Shown: in pieces, positions 24,039 to 32,799 of the stretch
How the letters are laid out: each line of letters starts with the position of its first letter
How positions within the stretch are numbered: position 1 is the first letter of the stretch
DNA from: Candidatus Zhuqueibacterota bacterium
GTDB taxonomy: Bacteria > Zhuqueibacterota > Zhuqueibacteria > Residuimicrobiales > Residuimicrobiaceae
Reading direction: 5' to 3'
DNA: 34,252 nt
Assembly: GCA_963169875.1 (NCBI GenBank)
Contig: CAUJEL010000126.1
Span: forward strand, 1-34,252
Position numbers and translations under genes: made by a program
Notes under the pieces: model-generated
The model's database searches: none
What the model saw: the letters and a program-made list of their open reading frames with translations, nothing else
What the model was told of the DNA's origin: nothing

Positions 24039-24707
24039 ATGCAATTAAGCGTCAAGGATGTGGTCAAGCTTTTCAATGTCTCGGAGCGGACTGTCTATCG
24101 CTGGATCAAGGAATCGGACATCCCTTATTACCGGCTCAATGAACAATACCGCTTCAATCGCGTGGAGATTCTGGAGTGGGCCACTTCCCGGCGTCTGCCG
24201 GTCTCACCCGAGATATTTCAGGAAGAGGAAGGCCCGCTGCTCTCCCTGTCACAGGCCATCGCCGCCGGTGGCATCCATTATCGCGTCGGCGGCGCCGATA
24301 AAAAAGAGGTGTTGCGGAATGTCGTTGAATTGCTGCGTTTGCCCGAAGAGGTGGATGTCTCGTTTTTGCTGCAGGTTTTGCTGGCGCGGGAATCGCTCGG
24401 TTCCACAGCCATAGGGGACGGCATCGCCATTCCTCACTCCCGCAGCCCCATTGTATTGCACATCAACAAGCCGATAGTGGCGTTGTGCTTCCTCGAGCAT
24501 CCCATTGATTTTGATGCACTCGACAAGCAGCCGGTATCCGTGCTCTTCACTTTGATCACACCCACGGTACGGTCGCATCTGCATTTGCTGTCGCGGCTCG
24601 CGTTCGCGCTCAAAGATCCGCAGTGGCTCGACATCATTCGCCGCCAGGGCACCCGCGAAGAAATCCTGGATACCTTGCGCACCTTCGAACAATCCATGAA
24701 TGCCTGA
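24039..24707 (+). CDS. Helix-turn-helix / PTS EIIA (fructose-mannitol type) fusion regulator
   Basis: 222 residues in two parts. Residues 1-50 form an excisionase/MerR-like helix-turn-helix (MQLSVKDVVKLFNVSERTVYRWI, then YYRLNEQYRFNRVEILEW). Residues about 68-220 are a PtsN-type EIIA domain with the phosphorylatable histidine H133 in DGIAIPHSR. EIIA domains accept phosphate from HPr-type proteins, so DNA binding could be tied to the phosphorylation or energy state of the cell. ATG 24039 is chosen because GGAG sits six bases upstream and the DNA-binding fold begins there. It is 17 bases ahead of the HyfB-like gene and surely co-transcribed. Target DNA is unknown; the palindrome upstream is a natural candidate. 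Confidence 0.84.
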   Translation: MQLSVKDVVKLFNVSERTVYRWIKESDIPYYRLNEQYRFNRVEILEWATSRRLPVSPEIFQEEEGPLLSLSQAIAAGGIHYRVGGADKKEVLRNVVELLRLPEEVDVSFLLQVLLARESLGSTAIGDGIAIPHSRSPIVLHINKPIVALCFLEHPIDFDALDKQPVSVLFTLITPTVRSHLHLLSRLAFALKDPQWLDIIRRQGTREEILDTLRTFEQSMNA

Positions 24708-24724: not shown

Positions 24725-26719
24725 ATGCTACCGTTTTTCATCGTGTTACTGATTCTTCTGGCCGGAAGCATTCTGGCCATGCTCTTTGTGCGGCGCACCA
24801 TGGCATTGTGGCTGGGATTCGGAGCGGCGGCCCTGGCAAGTCTCATTGGGCTGGTCTGGTCGTTGCACGGCCTCATCGGCCGCGTCCACCACGCGGTCGC
24901 GTATGCATGGTCTCTTCCCTACGCCTCTTTCAGCTTTATGGTGGACGGTCTGGCCGCGTTCTTCCTCATGGTGATTTTTCTCGTCTCGTTTCTGGTGGCC
25001 ATTCACGCCATCATCTATTTTCGTCCTTATGCCGGCCAAATCCGCTGCGGCCTGCTGATGTTCTCCTTCAATGCCTTGATCGCGGGCATGGCTTTGGTCG
25101 TGACTGCCGCCAATGGCATCCTCTTTCTCATGGCGTGGGAAATCATGTCCTTTGCCGCCTATTTTCTCATCGTTTTTGATGATAAAAAAGCTGAAATCCG
25201 CCGCTCGGGTTACATCTATCTGATCGCCACGCATATCGGCACTGCCTTTTTATTTGCTCTGTTCTGGTTGCTGGCCTTGAAAAGCAACGGCTCCATGGCT
25301 TTTGCCGGTTTCAGCGCATTCCGGACAGCCGGCCTCGCCATGCAGGTTGTGGCCGCTTCACTGGCGGTGCTGGGATTCGGCGCCAAGGCCGGCATTGTGC
25401 CGCTGCACGTCTGGTTGCCCGAAGCACATCCCGCAGCGCCCAGTCCCGTCTCCGCCCTGATGTCCGCCGTAATGATTAAAACCGGCATTTACGGCATCCT
25501 GCGCATTTATACCCTGCTGGCGCTGCCTGTGCATTGGTGGGCCTATGGTCTGATCGCCCTGGGAGTGGTTACGGGGTTGCTGGGCATCTTTTTCTCCATG
25601 ATGCAGCGCGATCTGAAACGTTCTCTGGCTTATTCGAGCATTGAGAATATCGGCATCATTTTGATCGGCATCGGCATCGGCAGTCTCGGACTCGCGCTGC
25701 GGAACAGCACCATCGCGCTTTTGGGATTTGCCGGCGCCCTGCTGCATATCCTCAATCACGCCCTGTTCAAGGCGCTGTTGTTCATGAGCGCCGGCATGGT
25801 GGTACAAAAGCTGCATCACCATGACATGGAAAAGATGGGGGGATTGCAGAAGCGTTTGCCGCGCACCGGGACGCTGTTCATCATCGCGGCAACCGCGGTA
25901 TGCGGTCTGCCGCCCCTCAACGGTTTTGTGAGCGAATTCCTCATCTATCTGGCAGCCTTTTCGGGTGTAGCCTCGCCCGGACCTGCCGGCATCGCATCCT
26001 CCCTGATCGTGATCATTTCGCTGTCGCTCATCGGCGCCCTGGCGCTGGCGACTTTTGCAAAGATCATCAGCATCGTCTTTTTGGGCGCGCCAAGGTCCCC
26101 TGAGATCGAGTCCGTCCGCGAGAGCACCTGGGCCATACACCTGCCGCTGATGGCCATCGCCCTGCTTATGTTCGCCATCGGCTTATTTCCAGACTGGATT
26201 CTGCGGCTCATCCTGCCAGCAACCGTACCATTGACAGGCATGACGGACCTTGAAACGGCAACCCTGCTGGCGCCTTTTTCTCCTGTCCTGCGCGGCATCA
26301 CCGTCACCACCATGCTGTTCGGTTTTATCTTTGTATGTTTGTATCATCTGAGAAAAAACATGCTGAAAAAGCGGGCGTATCAGGAAACTGAAACCTGGGG
26401 ATGCGGCTATCTGGCGCCAACGCCGCGCATGCAGTACACCAGCGCCTCATTCGCAGACAGCTTTATGGGATCTGTAAAAAAAGCAGCCGGTCTGGATGAA
26501 GAAGTGGACCGGCCAACTGGTCTCTTTCCCAAAGGGCAATCGTTTCGCGCGATGGTGCAGGATACCTTCATAACCCGTTTGTATGCGCCGTTTTTTGAAT
26601 TTTCAGCGCGCCTGCTGGGATTCGCGCAAAAGCTGCAGCACGGGCGCCTGCCGCTGTACATTTTATATATCACGGTGATGTTACTTCTTTTATTGGTCTG
26701 GTATGGAGGCCTGCGTTGA
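24725..26719 (+). CDS. hyfB: HyfB/HycC-like antiporter-type membrane subunit (NuoL/M/N family)
   Basis: 664 residues, close to the ~670 typical of HyfB/HycC. It has about sixteen hydrophobic helices of the proton-translocating Mrp/NuoL-M-N family, with KAGIVPLHVWLPEAHPAAPSPVSALMSAVM as the conserved central signature and HALFKALLFMSAG further on. The C-terminal tail has the HyfB-specific TWGCGYLAPTPRMQYTSASF. It forms the distal proton-pumping arm of the complex. ATG 24725 begins at MLPFFIVLL, with GAGAGGAA about twelve bases upstream; an upstream extension of the frame lies inside the regulator gene and is rejected. The end overlaps the next start (TTGA). Confidence 0.87.
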   Translation: MLPFFIVLLILLAGSILAMLFVRRTMALWLGFGAAALASLIGLVWSLHGLIGRVHHAVAYAWSLPYASFSFMVDGLAAFFLMVIFLVSFLVAIHAIIYFRPYAGQIRCGLLMFSFNALIAGMALVVTAANGILFLMAWEIMSFAAYFLIVFDDKKAEIRRSGYIYLIATHIGTAFLFALFWLLALKSNGSMAFAGFSAFRTAGLAMQVVAASLAVLGFGAKAGIVPLHVWLPEAHPAAPSPVSALMSAVMIKTGIYGILRIYTLLALPVHWWAYGLIALGVVTGLLGIFFSMMQRDLKRSLAYSSIENIGIILIGIGIGSLGLALRNSTIALLGFAGALLHILNHALFKALLFMSAGMVVQKLHHHDMEKMGGLQKRLPRTGTLFIIAATAVCGLPPLNGFVSEFLIYLAAFSGVASPGPAGIASSLIVIISLSLIGALALATFAKIISIVFLGAPRSPEIESVRESTWAIHLPLMAIALLMFAIGLFPDWILRLILPATVPLTGMTDLETATLLAPFSPVLRGITVTTMLFGFIFVCLYHLRKNMLKKRAYQETETWGCGYLAPTPRMQYTSASFADSFMGSVKKAAGLDEEVDRPTGLFPKGQSFRAMVQDTFITRLYAPFFEFSARLLGFAQKLQHGRLPLYILYITVMLLLLLVWYGGLR

Positions 26720-27633
26720 AAATCGGCATCCCCGCATCGCTAATTCTCTACCTCTTTTCCCTGATGGCAGCGCCGCTGGTGCCGGGCATCATCAATCGGG
26801 TCAAAGCCAGGTTCGGCGGACGCCGCGGCCAGCCGCTGCTGCAGCCTTATTACGACCTCGCACGCCTGATCCGCAAAGGATTCGTCTACAGCCGCACCAC
26901 CACCGCTCTGATCTATTGGGGCCCTCTGCTGCAGTTGGCCGCTCTCGGCACCGCACTGACGCTGCTCCCTTTGTTTCCGGGGGTGCCGCCGCTGTTATCC
27001 ATGCCCGGTGACTATATTTTGCTGTTCTATCTGCTCGCCCTCGGCCGCCTCTTCACCATTCTCGCGGCCATGGATACCGGCTCCGCCTTTGAAGGCATGG
27101 GCGCCAACCGCGAAGCCCTGTTCTCGGCCCTGGCAGAACCTGCGCTTTTCATCATCCTGGCGACGCTGGTGCATCGCAGCGGTTTTCTCTCGTTGAGCCA
27201 GATCTTTGTGGAAAGTTCCGCGCCGCTGGCCTTGCCCGGCGCGGAGGTCATGATCCTCATGGCAGCCCTATACCTCATCCTGTTGTCCGAGAATGCGCGC
27301 ATCCCGGTGGATGATCCCAACACCCATCTGGAATTGACCATGATCCATGAAGTCATGGTGCTCGACCATGCCGGACCGGATCTGGCTGTGATTCAGTATG
27401 GTGTCAGCCTCAAACTGTGGTTGTTCATGATCCTCTTATGTCAGATCGTCCTGTCCGTGCTGCCGAATCTGGGCGTATTGATGCCGTTATTGTGGCTGGC
27501 GGCGCTGCTGATCATCACCATTTCCATCGGCATCGTCGAATCAACCATGGCGCGGCTGCAAATGCGCCGCGTTCCGCAGCTTTTGGTGGCAGCCAGTGCG
27601 CTGGCGTTGGTCGCCTATATTGTATCGAGGTAA
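26716..27633 (+). CDS. hyfC: HyfC/HycD-like membrane subunit (NuoH family)
   Basis: 305 residues with about eight transmembrane helices. The NuoH/HyfC signatures GGRRGQPLLQPYYDLARL, EGMGANREALFSALAEPALF and ENARIPVDDPNTHLELTMIHEVM are all present, the last with the charged residues that link the membrane arm to the large subunit. It anchors the peripheral arm and forms the start of the quinone-like cavity and proton path. The start is TTG 26716, inside the TGA of the previous gene, with GGAGG seven bases upstream. Confidence 0.9.
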   Translation: MKIGIPASLILYLFSLMAAPLVPGIINRVKARFGGRRGQPLLQPYYDLARLIRKGFVYSRTTTALIYWGPLLQLAALGTALTLLPLFPGVPPLLSMPGDYILLFYLLALGRLFTILAAMDTGSAFEGMGANREALFSALAEPALFIILATLVHRSGFLSLSQIFVESSAPLALPGAEVMILMAALYLILLSENARIPVDDPNTHLELTMIHEVMVLDHAGPDLAVIQYGVSLKLWLFMILLCQIVLSVLPNLGVLMPLLWLAALLIITISIGIVESTMARLQMRRVPQLLVAASALALVAYIVSR

Positions 27634-27636
27634 TTC

Positions 27637-28281
27637 ATGTCAGAAATCACCAATCTACTGCTCCTGCTGCTCGTGCTCATCAACCTTTATCTGCTCAGCG
27701 CGACCCGGCTCAGTACGTCGATCAAATTTCTCGCCGCGCAAGGCGTGGTGCTCGCCGTGCTGCCGCTGTCGCTTCATGGCTTGCATTTTTCCATCCATAC
27801 CATCCTCATACCCCTGATCACGCTGGTGATCAAGGGCATTATGATCCCCAATATGCTCTTCAAGGCGATTCGCGAAATCGAAATCGACCGGGAAAACGAC
27901 CCCTACGTCGGCCAGACCGCCTCGCTGCTTTGCGGCGGTTTGTTCATCATCATCTCATTCTGGGTGTCGGAACGCCTGGTGCTGCCCTTGGGTGTGACAT
28001 CGCGCATTTGGGTGCCGGTGGCGCTTTCATCGGTGATGATGGGATTATTTCTGCTCATCACCCGGCGCAAGGCCATCACCCAGGTCATGGGGTATCTGGT
28101 GCTTGAGAACGGCATCTATGCCTTTGCCCTGGCGCTGGTACAAAAGATGCCCTATTTGATCGAGATGGGCGTGTTGCTCGACGTCTTTATCGCCGTCTTT
28201 ATCATGGGGATCATGTTGAATCATATCAAAGAAACCTTTGAAGATTTCGATGTCGAACATCTGACCAAATTGCGGGACTAG
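27637..28281 (+). CDS. hyfE: HyfE-like membrane subunit (NuoK family)
   Basis: 214 residues with six or seven hydrophobic helices. The first ~100 residues correspond to NuoK, and the C-terminal part is the HyfE-type extension with LVLENGIYAFALAL and the VLLDVFIAVFIMGIMLNHI segment. Membrane glutamates and aspartates in these helices belong to the proton path. ATG 27637 follows the HyfC-like stop by three bases, with GAGG six bases upstream. Confidence 0.87.
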   Translation: MSEITNLLLLLLVLINLYLLSATRLSTSIKFLAAQGVVLAVLPLSLHGLHFSIHTILIPLITLVIKGIMIPNMLFKAIREIEIDRENDPYVGQTASLLCGGLFIIISFWVSERLVLPLGVTSRIWVPVALSSVMMGLFLLITRRKAITQVMGYLVLENGIYAFALALVQKMPYLIEMGVLLDVFIAVFIMGIMLNHIKETFEDFDVEHLTKLRD

Positions 28282-28283
28282 TC

Positions 28284-29723
28284 ATGATTCTACTTCTTGT
28301 GATCTTGCCGCTTCTTGCCGGTGCGCTGCTCTTCATGGTCCGCCGTCCCGCGTGGAATCCTTTCGTCCTGTGTGCGACTGCTTTGATCCACCTGGTGATA
28401 ACCTTTTCATTCTGGACAAACGAACCGGATCCCGCGTTCAATGACTGGCTAGCGCTGGACGCGCTGGGATTGTTGTTTCTCTCCATTCTGAGCTTCATCT
28501 TTATGCTGGCCGCGATATATGCTGTGGGCTATTTAAAGGAAGAAAAACGCCTTCATGAAACGGATGTTCAGCGGCCGCACCTGTTTTATGCCTCGCTGTT
28601 ATTTTTTCTGGCGACCATGTCCCTGGTCACCTTAAGCCAGCATCTCGGACTACTCTGGGTCGCGGTGGAGGCAACCACCCTGGCGAGCGCGCCGCTCATC
28701 TTTCATCATCGCACCCATGAAGCCCTCGAAGCGACCTGGAAATATCTCGTGATCTGCTCGGTGGGCATTGCACTGGCCCTGTTGGGCATCTTTTTCCTCG
28801 GCACCGCCATCAAAGCCGAACAGGGATCCCTGATCCTTTCCGACATGTTGCAGTATGGGGTCACACTGGACACCTACTGGGTTCGAGCAGCTTTTATCTT
28901 TTTGATCATTGGTTATGGCACTAAAATGGGATTGGCGCCCATGCATACCTGGCTGCCCGATGCGCACAGCGAAGCCCCTTCGCCTGCCTCCGCCCTGCTA
29001 TCCGGCGTTCTTCTCAACTGCGCTTTTCTCGCCATCCTGCGCGGCTATCAGGTCCTCAGTGCCGCCGGGCAGGCGATGTTTGCACAGCATATTTTGCTGC
29101 TGTTCGGACTGCTCTCTCTCGGTCTGGCGGCGGCGTTTTTGCTCAATCAAACCGACTACAAACGCATGCTGGCATATTCCAGCGTCGAGCATATGGGCAT
29201 CCTGGCGCTGGGTATGGGCCTTGGCCCGGGAGCGGCCTTTTTCGTGCTGCTGCACAGTCTCAATCATTCGCTGGCCAAATCGATGCTGTTTCTAACATCG
29301 GGAAATATCCTCTTGGCCTTTAAAAGCAAAAAAATTCATTCCATCACCGGTCTGGTACGCGCCCTGCCGTGGAGCGGATTCTTGTGGATCAGCGGATTTC
29401 TCGCCATCACCGGTACGCCGCCATTTGCACCCTTTGTCAGTGAATTCAATTTGCTGGGTGTGGCGATCTCCGGCCATCGTTTTGTGGTGGCGGGATTGTA
29501 TCTGGCCGCCCTGGTTGTGGCGTTTCTCGGCATGGGCAAGAGTGTTCTGAGCATGTCGCAGGGAGATTCCAGCATGGCCCCCGCTGGTTGTAAGGAAAAA
29601 AGCGTCCTGGTGGCGGCGCCCTTGATCCTGTTTCTGCTCCTGCTGCTGCTGGGCGTTCATATACCCGAGGTGCTCTCCGGAAAAATCATGGCGGCTGCCC
29701 GGCTGCTGGGAGGCGTACAATGA
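28284..29723 (+). CDS. hyfF: HyfF-like antiporter-type membrane subunit (NuoL/M/N family)
   Basis: 479 residues with about fourteen hydrophobic helices. The conserved GTKMGLAPMHTWLPDAHSEAPSPASALLSG block, HSLNHSLAKSMLFLTSG, and GTPPFAPFVSEF are characteristic of HyfF and the HycC/NuoM-like pumps. It is the second antiporter-type subunit of the operon. The usual third one of Hyf operons (HyfD) is absent. ATG 28284 directly follows the HyfE-like gene. The end overlaps the large-subunit gene by four bases (ATGA). Confidence 0.87.
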   Translation: MILLLVILPLLAGALLFMVRRPAWNPFVLCATALIHLVITFSFWTNEPDPAFNDWLALDALGLLFLSILSFIFMLAAIYAVGYLKEEKRLHETDVQRPHLFYASLLFFLATMSLVTLSQHLGLLWVAVEATTLASAPLIFHHRTHEALEATWKYLVICSVGIALALLGIFFLGTAIKAEQGSLILSDMLQYGVTLDTYWVRAAFIFLIIGYGTKMGLAPMHTWLPDAHSEAPSPASALLSGVLLNCAFLAILRGYQVLSAAGQAMFAQHILLLFGLLSLGLAAAFLLNQTDYKRMLAYSSVEHMGILALGMGLGPGAAFFVLLHSLNHSLAKSMLFLTSGNILLAFKSKKIHSITGLVRALPWSGFLWISGFLAITGTPPFAPFVSEFNLLGVAISGHRFVVAGLYLAALVVAFLGMGKSVLSMSQGDSSMAPAGCKEKSVLVAAPLILFLLLLLLGVHIPEVLSGKIMAAARLLGGVQ

Positions 29724-31219
29724 AATCCAGTGACCATCTGTTAACGCACAACGGTTTCGCCTTCCCGTTCAATAAATGCCCGATTCTGCCGCTGCCGCGA
29801 TTTCAGGAAGGCGTGCTGCAGCAGGTACATGATGGCGGCAGAGTCTCCGCTCTGTTCGCCATGCCGCAATCCACGGCTTCTCATTTGCTGGTGGCTGTGA
29901 TCAGTCATGACCTGGAGGGGCTATTGGCGGTGCTGGCCACAGAGGCAGCACAGCACTTTCCATCCCTGACGCCGGCGTGTCCGCAAGTGCATCTATTCGA
30001 ACGTGAGATATTCGAGCAGATGGGCATAAAACCCCGGAACCATCCCTGGCTCAAGCCGGTGCGGTTTCCGCAGACTCCGGGTGTGAAGCGCAAAAAGAAC
30101 GCCGTGGGCGTGATGGATTTTTACCGCCTCGAGGGCGAGCAGATTCATGAAGTCGCGGTCGGACCGGTGCATGCAGGCGTCATCGAGCCGGGGCACTTTC
30201 GCTTCCAGTGTCAGGGCGAACTGGTGCATCATCTGGAAATATCGCTGGGATATCAGCATCGCGGCATAGAGGAGCATTTGTCCGGTGGACCGTGGCCGGC
30301 CACCCTCTACCAGATGGAAGCGGCCGCTGGCGACACCAGCATCGGGCATACGCTGGCATATTGTCAGAATATGGAAGCCTTGTCGGGTGTGCGGGCGCCG
30401 GCCCGGGCGCAGGCCATTCGTGGACTGGCCCTGGAGCTGGAGCGGCTGGCGAATCACATCGGCGATCTTGGCGCGCTGGCCGGGGATGTGGGATTTTTGC
30501 CCACTGCCACCTATTGCGGCGCCATCCGCGGCGATCTGCTCAATATGACGGCAGTGGTCTGCGGCAGCCGTCTCGGACGCGGTTTGCTGCTGCCGGGCGG
30601 TGTCGCATTCGATCTCGATGACCGCCTCATCAAAACACTTTTGTCGCGTTTGAAAAAGGCACAACAGGATGTCACATCCGCTGTGGCGTTATTGTGGGAT
30701 TCCTCCTCGGTGTTGTCAAGATTTGAAGGTACGGGCCGTATCACGCAAGCGCAGGCTGAGGAAATCGGCATGGTGGGACCCGCCGTGCGGGCCAGCGGCG
30801 TCGAACAGGATGTGCGTCATGATCATCCCACCGGAATTTATCAACTCTTTCAAGTGCCGATGGCGGTGCTGACCCAGGGCGATGTTCACAGCCGGGCCAT
30901 GGTGCGCTGGCTGGAAATTCAGCGTTCCCTGGCCTTCTGTCAGGATCTGCTGGCGCATCTGCCCGAGGGGGAGGTTTTAATGCCGTTGAAAAATTTGGCG
31001 TCCTGGCACATGGCCATCAGTCTGGTTGAGGGCTGGCGCGGTGAAATCTGTCATGTCGCCTGCAGCGACGCAAAAGGCAAGGTCAGCCGTTACAAAATAG
31101 TCGATCCCTCCTTTCACAACTGGTTCGGCCTGGCACTGGCCCTGCGTGGTCAAGCCATTTCTGATTTTCCGCTCTGCAACAAGAGCTTTAACTTGTCCTA
31201 TTGTGGATTTGATTTATAG
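29720..31219 (+). CDS. NuoC-NuoD-type large subunit without the NiFe cysteines (Ehr-like)
   Basis: 499 residues. Residues about 1-125 are a NuoC-like domain (HLFEREIFEQMGIKPRNHPW). Residues about 140-499 are the hydrogenase-large-subunit/NuoD-like domain (VGPVHAGVIEPGHFRFQCQGE, RLANHIGDLGALAGDVGF). In true group 4 hydrogenases two CxxC motifs bind Ni-Fe. Here the first reads EAAAGDTSIGH, so both cysteines are Ala203 and Thr206. The C-terminal one reads VDPSFHNW, giving Ser464 and Asn467. This matches NuoD more than HycE and implies no hydrogenase activity. It should face the small subunit's terminal cluster and could bind a quinone-like or unknown redox substrate. ATG 29720 has GGAGG seven bases upstream. 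Confidence 0.88.
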   Translation: MKSSDHLLTHNGFAFPFNKCPILPLPRFQEGVLQQVHDGGRVSALFAMPQSTASHLLVAVISHDLEGLLAVLATEAAQHFPSLTPACPQVHLFEREIFEQMGIKPRNHPWLKPVRFPQTPGVKRKKNAVGVMDFYRLEGEQIHEVAVGPVHAGVIEPGHFRFQCQGELVHHLEISLGYQHRGIEEHLSGGPWPATLYQMEAAAGDTSIGHTLAYCQNMEALSGVRAPARAQAIRGLALELERLANHIGDLGALAGDVGFLPTATYCGAIRGDLLNMTAVVCGSRLGRGLLLPGGVAFDLDDRLIKTLLSRLKKAQQDVTSAVALLWDSSSVLSRFEGTGRITQAQAEEIGMVGPAVRASGVEQDVRHDHPTGIYQLFQVPMAVLTQGDVHSRAMVRWLEIQRSLAFCQDLLAHLPEGEVLMPLKNLASWHMAISLVEGWRGEICHVACSDAKGKVSRYKIVDPSFHNWFGLALALRGQAISDFPLCNKSFNLSYCGFDL

Positions 31220-31228
31220 AGGAATTCC

Positions 31229-31981
31229 ATGTACCGAATTTTACGCGCGCGTCAGCAGCACGGGATGCGAACCATCGCTTTCCCGGACCAGGAGCCGGTA
31301 CTGCCGGAACGTTTCCGCGGACTGCCCGAAATCGATGCGAAGAAATGCCCGGCCGAATGCACGCACTGTGCCACGGCCTGTCCGACCCGGGCGATTACCC
31401 TAAACCCATTTGCCGTGGACCTGGGCCGATGTCTCTTTTGCGGCGCCTGCGAGCGGGCGTGTCCGGAGAAAGCATTGGTTTTCGGGCGCGATTATCGCCT
31501 GGCGGTGCGGCGCCGGGAAGCACTCCACTGGAGCGGGGCGGCCTTGCAGCATGCGGAAGCCTTGGGACAGGAGCTGATCAAGCTCTACGGCCGGTCATTC
31601 AAACTGCGCCAGGTGAGCGCGGGCGGCTGCAATGGCTGCGAAGTGGATATCAATGTTCTGGGAACCAATGTGTTTGATCTGGGGAGGTTCGGCATTCAGA
31701 TCGTTGCGAGTCCGCGTCACGCCGATGGTTTGATCGTCACCGGTCCGGTGAGTGAGAATATGCGCGAAGCGCTGCTCAAGACCTGGGAGGCGGTGCCGTC
31801 GCCGCGGCTGGTCATCGCAGTTGGAGCTTGCGCTGTTTCAGGGGGTGCGTTTCGCGATCACGAGCAGGTGCATAATGGCGTGGCCGCGCTGCTGCCGGTG
31901 GATTTGTATATTCCCGGTTGTCCGCCGCATCCGATCACGATTTTGGATGGACTGCTGAGGCTGCTGGGGCGGAGAGGCTGA
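31229..31981 (+). CDS. Fused double [4Fe-4S] ferredoxin and NuoB-type small subunit
   Basis: A 250-residue fusion of a HyfH/NuoI-like and a HyfI/NuoB-like protein. The ferredoxin part has two cluster motifs: Cys 40, 44, 47, 51 (CPAECTHCATACP, one residue longer than the usual spacing) and Cys 68, 71, 74, 78 (CLFCGACERACP). The NuoB part (about 115-245) keeps all four ligands of the terminal N2-type cluster: C134 and C137 in GGCNGCEVD, C201 in GACAVSGG, C231 in PGCPPHP. Electrons would pass through these three clusters to the large-subunit cavity. The start is ATG 31229 with GAGGA seven bases upstream. No maturation, formate dehydrogenase or other input module follows in the window. Confidence 0.88.
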   Translation: MYRILRARQQHGMRTIAFPDQEPVLPERFRGLPEIDAKKCPAECTHCATACPTRAITLNPFAVDLGRCLFCGACERACPEKALVFGRDYRLAVRRREALHWSGAALQHAEALGQELIKLYGRSFKLRQVSAGGCNGCEVDINVLGTNVFDLGRFGIQIVASPRHADGLIVTGPVSENMREALLKTWEAVPSPRLVIAVGACAVSGGAFRDHEQVHNGVAALLPVDLYIPGCPPHPITILDGLLRLLGRRG

Positions 31982-32229: not shown

Positions 32230-32799
32230 ATGTCGCGCACCTTTGTAGAAATGGTCTTAACGGCGAATCAAGAGTATTTAAAAGGTTTTTTGCAGGGTTA
32301 CATCGCGGGTGTGGGAGTTGAGTACCCGTTTTTCTTCAACCACGAAGCGGGCATCGAGGCGGAGTCCCTGACCGAGAAAATTCAGGAGTGGGCCACATTG
32401 TCCGATAAATACCAGTATGTCATCCTGGAAAAAGCCTTATACGAAGCATTACAGGCATCCGCTGCCATTTTTAGTGAAGCCACAAAGATCGTCTCCGTGA
32501 AAAACGTGAAATCCTGTCAATTCGAGGTCACCATCAAAGCGCATTCGCGCGATGACAGCAAAGCCATTCGTGAGCTTGTCCAATTCAGGCCGTCAACTCT
32601 GGAGATGATCAATTGGCAGGAATCGGAAGAAATTGACGAAAAGGCAAAAGGCGTGGAACTCTATACACCGGCGCATGATTACACGTATAAAGCCTCCGGA
32701 TCGTTCAAAGGGGACCTGGAGACGGTGATTGAATTCCGCAAGAAATTAACCGGCTTTTCAGCGGTGACCGCCGGGGAAATTAAACTCGAACGGCAATAA
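32230..32799 (+). CDS. Unrecognised 189-residue soluble protein
   Basis: I do not recognise a family. The protein begins MSRTFVEMVLTANQEYLKGF, has mixed helix and strand and no signal peptide or membrane helix. Strands near SVKNVKSCQFEVTIKAHSRDDSKAI and helices EEIDEKAKG and LETVIEFRKKL are the clearest elements. Charged residues are common and cysteine rare. It has a good ribosome-binding site (AGGAG before ATG 32230) and promoter-like sequence upstream, so it is probably a real single-gene unit. Nothing links it to the hydrogenase-like operon beyond position. Function unknown. Confidence 0.7.
   Translation: MSRTFVEMVLTANQEYLKGFLQGYIAGVGVEYPFFFNHEAGIEAESLTEKIQEWATLSDKYQYVILEKALYEALQASAAIFSEATKIVSVKNVKSCQFEVTIKAHSRDDSKAIRELVQFRPSTLEMINWQESEEIDEKAKGVELYTPAHDYTYKASGSFKGDLETVIEFRKKLTGFSAVTAGEIKLERQ

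Follow-up and report, generated by a model that had tools for sequence, protein, structure and literature searches.

A conserved Ehr operon whose hydrogenase-related large subunit has lost its Ni-Fe ligands and probably serves another redox reaction

The window, by which we mean the whole 34,252-nucleotide stretch of DNA that was analyzed, carries on its forward strand a gene for a PtsN-like regulator followed by six genes for a predicted Ech/energy-converting hydrogenase-related (Ehr) complex. The order pts-ehrA-ehrB-ehrC-ehrD-ehrL-ehrS is that of a conserved seven-gene module. Gaps between the subunit genes run from -4 to +9 bp and 17 bp follow the regulator, in agreement with the original prediction that the neighboring genes are intact and have coupled starts. 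Downstream of ehrS, a 189-amino-acid open reading frame (window positions 32230-32799) has no match in Pfam or NCBIfam and no relatives in 80 loci. The features, by window position, are as follows.

24039-24707, + strand: regulator, excisionase-type HTH (HTH_17, PF12728) plus PtsN-like PTS EIIA (PF00359; the NCBIfam PtsN match is below cut-off)
24725-26719, + strand: ehrA, HyfB-like antiporter subunit of Mrp/NuoL type (PF00361; NF005086, hydrogenase 4 subunit B, 552 bits, below cut-off)
26716-27633, + strand: ehrB, HyfC/NuoH-like membrane anchor with a TTG start (PF00146)
27637-28281, + strand: ehrC, HyfE/NuoK-like subunit (PF00420; NF008556 below cut-off)
28284-29723, + strand: ehrD, HyfF-like antiporter subunit (PF00361; NF005044, 377 bits, below cut-off)
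29720-31219, + strand: ehrL, NuoCD/HycE-like large subunit without Ni-Fe ligands, 499 aa (PF00329 and PF00346 in Pfam)
30185-30187, + strand: E156 of EhrL, in the beta1-beta2 loop, aligned with HycE E193 and MbhL E21
30209-30211, + strand: C164, near-invariant in the window's Ehr branch
30326-30337, + strand: A203-G204-D205-T206, the former proximal CxxC (HycE C241/C244 replaced by A203/T206)
30515-30517, + strand: C266, near-invariant in the same branch
30560-30562, + strand: C281, likewise
31103-31120, + strand: DPSFHN, the conserved NuoD-type "PSF" motif
31166-31216, + strand: Ehr C-terminal signature FPLCNKSFNLSYCGFDL, with S493/G496 at distal C531/C534 and N491 at canopy D529
31175-31177, + strand: C486, near-invariant in the branch
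31196-31198 and 31205-31207, + strand: codons of S493 and G496, aligned with HycE C531/C534
31202-31204, + strand: C495, near-invariant in the branch
31229-31981, + strand: ehrS, 2x[4Fe-4S] ferredoxin domain fused to a NuoB/HycG-like domain (8 + 4 cluster cysteines)

The two Pfam matches of ehrL bear out the earlier description of its product as a NuoC-NuoD fusion. When this protein was aligned with E. coli HycE and with NuoD, the absence of all four Ni-Fe ligands was upheld, with A203, T206, S493, and G496 in their place, and no CxxC motif occurs anywhere in the 499 residues. The proximal pair had been correctly assigned to A203/T206. The distal pair, however, had been placed at S464/N467, which the alignment rules out: DPSFHN lies opposite ATYANW of HycE and PSFAHL of NuoCD, and the true site is S493/G496, within the C-terminal FNLSYCGFDL. 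EhrL ends three residues past G496, with no cleavable tail for a maturation protease.

Scanning one genome per species gave 283 relatives of EhrL, of which the best 80 (51 to 63% identity) were kept and aligned with the window protein in 81 rows; by their labels they come from Desulfobacteraceae, Planctomycetes, Acidobacteria, Lentisphaerae, Elusimicrobia, Poribacteria, and others. Across this set, G204, D205, S493, and G496 are invariant (81/81), position 203 is Ala in 73 rows, Ser in 7, and Cys in 1, and position 206 is Thr in 76 of the 81. AGDT and FPLCNKSFNLSYCG are thus nearly invariant among the window protein and the best 80 of 283 relatives, and CxxC appears at the proximal or distal site in none of these 81 rows. 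The core signature is also shared by seven more relatives of the window's own class, at 42 to 63% identity. Since 80 relatives from many phyla share the ligand loss, an indel or a sequencing error cannot account for it, and close relatives with intact motifs, which would have undercut the original prediction, did not appear among the best 80 of 283. A decayed site would vary, whereas here new residues have become fixed, which argues against decay; we judge the pocket of EhrL to be remodeled.

The HyfB-, HyfC-, HyfE-, and HyfF-like membrane subunits occur in one operon together with EhrL and EhrS, and the large subunit is a group 4 homolog without the four Ni-Fe cysteines. In our tree, Ehr sequences group in one clade, separate from NuoD and from [NiFe] group 4, with 100/99 support, in an unrooted topology with flagged long branches and without a Geobacter reference. 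Such a topology bears only loosely on the earlier statement that Ehr complexes lie between group 4 hydrogenases and complex I. With this subunit composition, gene order, and single clade, the predicted products are those of an Ehr complex (EhrA-B-C-D-L-S) within the complex I and group 4 hydrogenase superfamily, as had been proposed. We follow the definition of Ehr given in citing papers, and Geobacter was compared by description, outside the alignment and tree. The window complex therefore joins a family that has already been described. According to those papers, Ehr was first described in Geobacter, where it corresponds to GSU0739-0745 of Geobacter sulfurreducens (PMC7894505), and occurs also in Nitrospira, Margulisbacteria, and CPR (PMC10284858, PMC12342949, PMC6349859, PMC7304191). 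They describe the Nitrospira complex as being of unknown function and voice the suspicion that Ehr ties ion translocation to a redox reaction in the cytoplasm. Among the papers that we found, none gives a measured activity for any Ehr. One report credits a Desulfotomaculum EhrL with all four cysteines, so the name is used loosely.

An AlphaFold2 model of EhrL (pLDDT 87.7, pTM 0.90) has HycE as its best match among solved structures (7z0s_E, TMq 0.89), followed by NuoCD chains of complex I; the beta1-beta2 loop and C-terminal tail of the model are poorly placed (pLDDT < 50 for residues 148 to 158 and 493 to 499). Along with E156, whose counterparts HycE E193 and MbhL E21 have a role in proton transfer (PMC9474812, PMC7684303), the alignment pairs H246, R357, E399, and R440 with HycE H284, R395, E437, and R478, residues of the proton path formed by Glu193, His284, Arg395, Glu437, and Arg478 (PMC9474812). 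The canopy Asp529 of HycE, called strictly conserved in PMC9474812 and common to hydrogenases and complex I, is replaced in the window by Asn491, which is shared by 78 of the 81 rows (window plus best 80 of 283 relatives). The His and Tyr used by complex I for quinone are also missing from EhrL: by column, NuoCD H224 corresponds to I155 and Y273 to G204. Both are present in the NuoD of the complex I from the same genome.

All 12 cysteines for three [4Fe-4S] clusters are present in EhrS. In the membrane arm, both antiporter subunits retain the Glu and Lys residues of the proton path, with E139, K221, K252, and E404 invariant in EhrA and E129, K214, D291, K293, and K332 conserved in EhrD. EhrB conserves E141 (NuoH E157), D199, and E206, acidic residues common to NuoH and HyfC, and EhrC conserves E157, E176, and D182. 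From these pump residues and Fe-S ligands we infer ion pumping and an electron acceptor or donor in the cavity of the large subunit.

The operon also offers a view of possible regulation. Of 49 loci with a complete ehrA and sufficient sequence before it, at least 46 have an EIIA/HTH gene immediately upstream of ehrA, and the phospho-accepting H133 (GIAIPH) is kept in 52/53. At one of the three exceptions (L085), the gene is probably hidden because a long open reading frame overlaps it; a pts match is listed there. Of the seven relatives from the window's class, six likewise have this gene before ehrA, and four of those six are at 47 to 48% identity; the seventh and most distant (41%) has no such gene before ehrA, and its operon opens with ehrS. 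No other neighbor is conserved at the Ehr loci compared. A flanking enzyme as a substrate clue, such as the formate dehydrogenase whose link with Ehr is proposed for Margulisbacteria, was considered and not found. We found no Ehr-linked PTS regulator in the literature, and the association with ehrA is apparently undescribed so far. Six loci (L024, L039, L052, L060, L083, L085) have two HyfB-like ehrA genes in tandem, possibly like the seven-gene cluster of Geobacter, and at L007 the short contig that carries ehrL ends in a second, partial ehrL (L007:7345-8058; 38 to 56% identity), which is either a second copy or an assembly artifact.

When we searched the window's genome family by family, three NuoD-family genes emerged, belonging to complex I (contig C197), a true group 4 hydrogenase (C210), and the Ehr of the window. 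The C210 enzyme has the DPCFSC motif, a C-terminal tail, and an adjoining hycI protease gene, whereas no hyp or hycI family was found among the Ehr operon genes with Pfam and NCBIfam. Maturation genes do occur elsewhere, as HypD and HypE genes on C104 and hycI on C210, and the true hydrogenase accounts for them. With respect to quinones, Mqn and MenB gave no match in this genome, yet a no-quinone reading fails because MenA- and UbiE-type genes are present on C48. Among 49 Ehr-bearing genomes, 26 carry a futalosine-pathway marker and another 3 a MenB match above the cut-off; 20, including the window's, lack both, a count that covers menaquinone markers only, in genomes whose completeness is mostly not known. 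This weakens the case for a universal quinone acceptor.

The C210 hydrogenase gene itself (G000:C210:30914-32152; L091, L138) has an in-frame TGA exactly where the proximal motif would have its second Cys (ICGI-TGA-G). This TGA is conserved in at least 10 genomes (also L103, L105, L106, L107, L110, L111, L114, L115, and L116) and is followed by a conserved hairpin of the ACAGTAC-GG.-GTACTGT type with modest folding z-scores (-0.2 to -2.4); SelB is present. The product looks like a selenocysteine hydrogenase of the CxxU type, while UxxC is given for hydrogenase alpha subunits in a 2026 review (PMC13188914). A tRNA-Sec candidate was rejected, the over-threshold Rfam match being an ordinary tRNA.

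Our results are most consistent with a hydrogenase-related complex that lost the residues of its Ni-Fe site, kept its electron wires and pump residues, and probably does another redox job. We give a probability of roughly 0.6 to a live redox pump in which a ferredoxin-like donor feeds EhrS, an acceptor other than protons is reduced in the EhrL pocket, and ion transport is driven. In the scheme that we infer for electron direction, acceptor, ion, and regulation, electrons would pass from the donor to the two [4Fe-4S] clusters of the ferredoxin domain, then to the hydrogenase-type proximal [4Fe-4S] cluster, and from there to the acceptor in the rebuilt pocket. Protonation of the acceptor at that site, with proton uptake through E156, is probable given that EhrL retains Glu156 and the His246/Glu399/Arg357/Arg440 path. 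Turnover would drive the two Mrp-type antiporter subunits, moving H+ or Na+, and the EIIA/HTH protein probably controls expression through PTS phosphorylation. This redox pump is favored by the ligand loss in the best 80 of 283 relatives with Fe-S and pump residues kept, the single clade, the canopy and proton-path positions that map to HycE, the HycE fold, and an operon without the maturation genes that adjoin the true hydrogenase. As to the acceptor, a membrane quinone bound in a noncanonical manner is the single most likely candidate, though a tentative one: the quinone enzymes encoded in the window's genome speak for it, and the I155/G204 substitutions and the 20 of 49 genomes without the menaquinone markers tested speak against it. 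A small polar substrate is nearly as likely.

An argument can be made that Ehr is not a redox enzyme at all and serves as an Mrp-like ion transporter, the former hydrogenase arm being structural or regulatory. Plasmid-borne homologs at 35 to 41% identity (Variovorax, Burkholderia, Cupriavidus, Sinorhizobium, and Azospirillum) have an NKSF C-terminal signature and no Ni-Fe ligands, and in several of them, as in Ehr-like relatives from proteobacteria and genome G030, EhrS has no ferredoxin domain. In Allomeiothermus silvanus and Mycobacterium branderi, even the proximal-cluster cysteines are absent. Electron input is therefore not universal in the wider family, and the nonredox reading stays alive for those members in which the redox arm is dispensable. 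For the window's branch it is unlikely, because a purely structural arm would need no cluster cysteines, and EhrS here keeps those of the proximal cluster in 77/77 sequences and those of the ferredoxin domain in 72-77/77.

Several of these distant loci are of interest in their own right. Five (L163, L164, L165, L166, L145) lack the N-terminal ferredoxin domain of EhrS and have no separate ferredoxin subunit beside it. All four proximal [4Fe-4S] cysteines are replaced in A. silvanus pMESIL01 (L162:11278-12150) and M. branderi (L169:8848-9642), for example with NTGLDD where others have CNGC, which suggests complex-I-type assemblies without a proximal cluster. Variovorax sp. PBL-E5 plasmid 3 carries two different tandem Ehr operons (L161, L170), of which only one has the ferredoxin domain in EhrS.

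Another alternative, which we regard as somewhat less probable still, is that the complex resembles MBS, the solved complex that has lost part of its Ni-Fe ligands and reduces polysulfide (PMC7684303). The proximal cluster itself would then reduce a hydrophobic sulfur substrate without protons, and C486 and C495 do lie near the former ligand site in sequence. Such a mechanism is a poor fit for a complex that keeps both E156 and the four-Cys proximal motif. The short loop of MBS leaves its proximal cluster with three cysteines, and MBS has lost the counterpart of MbhL E21; MbsL also retains two Ni-Fe cysteines and EhrL none.

We give similarly little credence to a bolder variant, in which C164, C281, C486, and C495, mostly with C266, form a new metal or thiol redox center in the ferredoxin-domain branch, replacing the Ni-Fe site and driving the pump by a reaction foreign to known relatives of complex I under a PTS phosphorelay switch via the EIIA-HTH protein. 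Among the sequences compared, these residues occur together only in the window's branch; the four without C266 co-occur also in the four relatives at 47 to 48% identity, and the set is absent from homologs whose EhrS has no ferredoxin domain. The two features may, however, go back to a single phylogenetic split and not to separate events. Caballeronia and B. cenocepacia, a third type at greater distance, have the ferredoxin domain without the cysteine set. The pattern is therefore no proof of a shared site. As a universal catalytic residue, Cys486 was rejected: it is Ile in several distant homologs.

Decay, with function ending when the Ni-Fe site was lost and the genes drifting since, is very improbable. 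The ligands are gone, and a 2026 Geobacter paper (PMC13194489), reporting missense mutations in Ehr under electrode cultivation, called the complex "already nonfunctional" because the site is lost. Yet 130 of 499 EhrL columns are at least 97% conserved across the 81 rows (window and best 80 of 283 relatives), and the substituted residues are near-invariant; Fe-S and pump residues are intact, frames are open, and the module is kept over many phyla. In Geobacter, Ehr proteins are produced and are more abundant on formate. We reject decay on this conservation, as the original prediction had done. That true CxxC motifs were merely displaced nearby is refuted, for although the misplaced distal site shows that alignment matters, there is no CxxC in EhrL or at either site in the best 80 of 283 relatives, and the matches to HycE, by HMM and by structure alike, span nearly the full length.

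Ehr occurs in very many bacteria, and where one recent paper dismisses it as dead, the conservation found here points to live enzymes. The replaced residues AGDT and FPLCNKSFNLSYCG, the canopy change from Asp to Asn, and the branch-specific cysteine set provide testable handles, and the PtsN-like regulator may indicate when the complex is used. If the acceptor were identified, a new step linking hydrogenases with complex I would come to light.

Comparison with known systems places the window's complex among its relatives. As far as the available descriptions go, Geobacter Ehr shares EhrA (NuoL-like), EhrC (HyfE-like), EhrL, and EhrS, Mrp-like subunits, and the lack of Ni-Fe ligands, and differs in forming a seven-gene cluster that includes EhrA-1, against six subunit genes here; the portions consulted of the Geobacter, Nitrospira, Margulisbacteria, and CPR accounts make no mention of a PtsN/HTH gene heading the operon. 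MBS of Pyrococcus furiosus resembles the window's complex in its lost Ni-Fe site, missing quinone His/Tyr, ferredoxin-type input, and Mrp-type membrane arm, but neither its three-Cys proximal cluster nor its two retained Ni-Fe cysteines are seen in the window's complex, which keeps as E156 the Glu lost from MbsL. Complex I (NuoCD/Nqo4) shares the superfamily, the PSF motif, the absence of Ni-Fe ligands, and the antiporter, NuoH, and NuoK homologs. In contrast to complex I, the window's complex has no quinone His/Tyr, no NADH module, and not the tandem-Cys N2 motif of NuoB; EhrS has C134-x2-C137, a hydrogenase-type CxxC. Compared with group 4 hydrogenases of the FHL type (HycE/HyfG), the window's complex lacks the two Ni-Fe-binding CxxC motifs with their four cysteines, the canopy Asp529, the cleavable C-terminal extension, and a cognate endopeptidase in the operon, and it has its ferredoxin and small subunits fused into one. 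With HycE/HyfG it nevertheless shares the NuoC-NuoD fusion, the HycE fold, the Glu193/His284/Arg395/Glu437/Arg478 path, and the CxxC proximal cluster motif of the small subunit.
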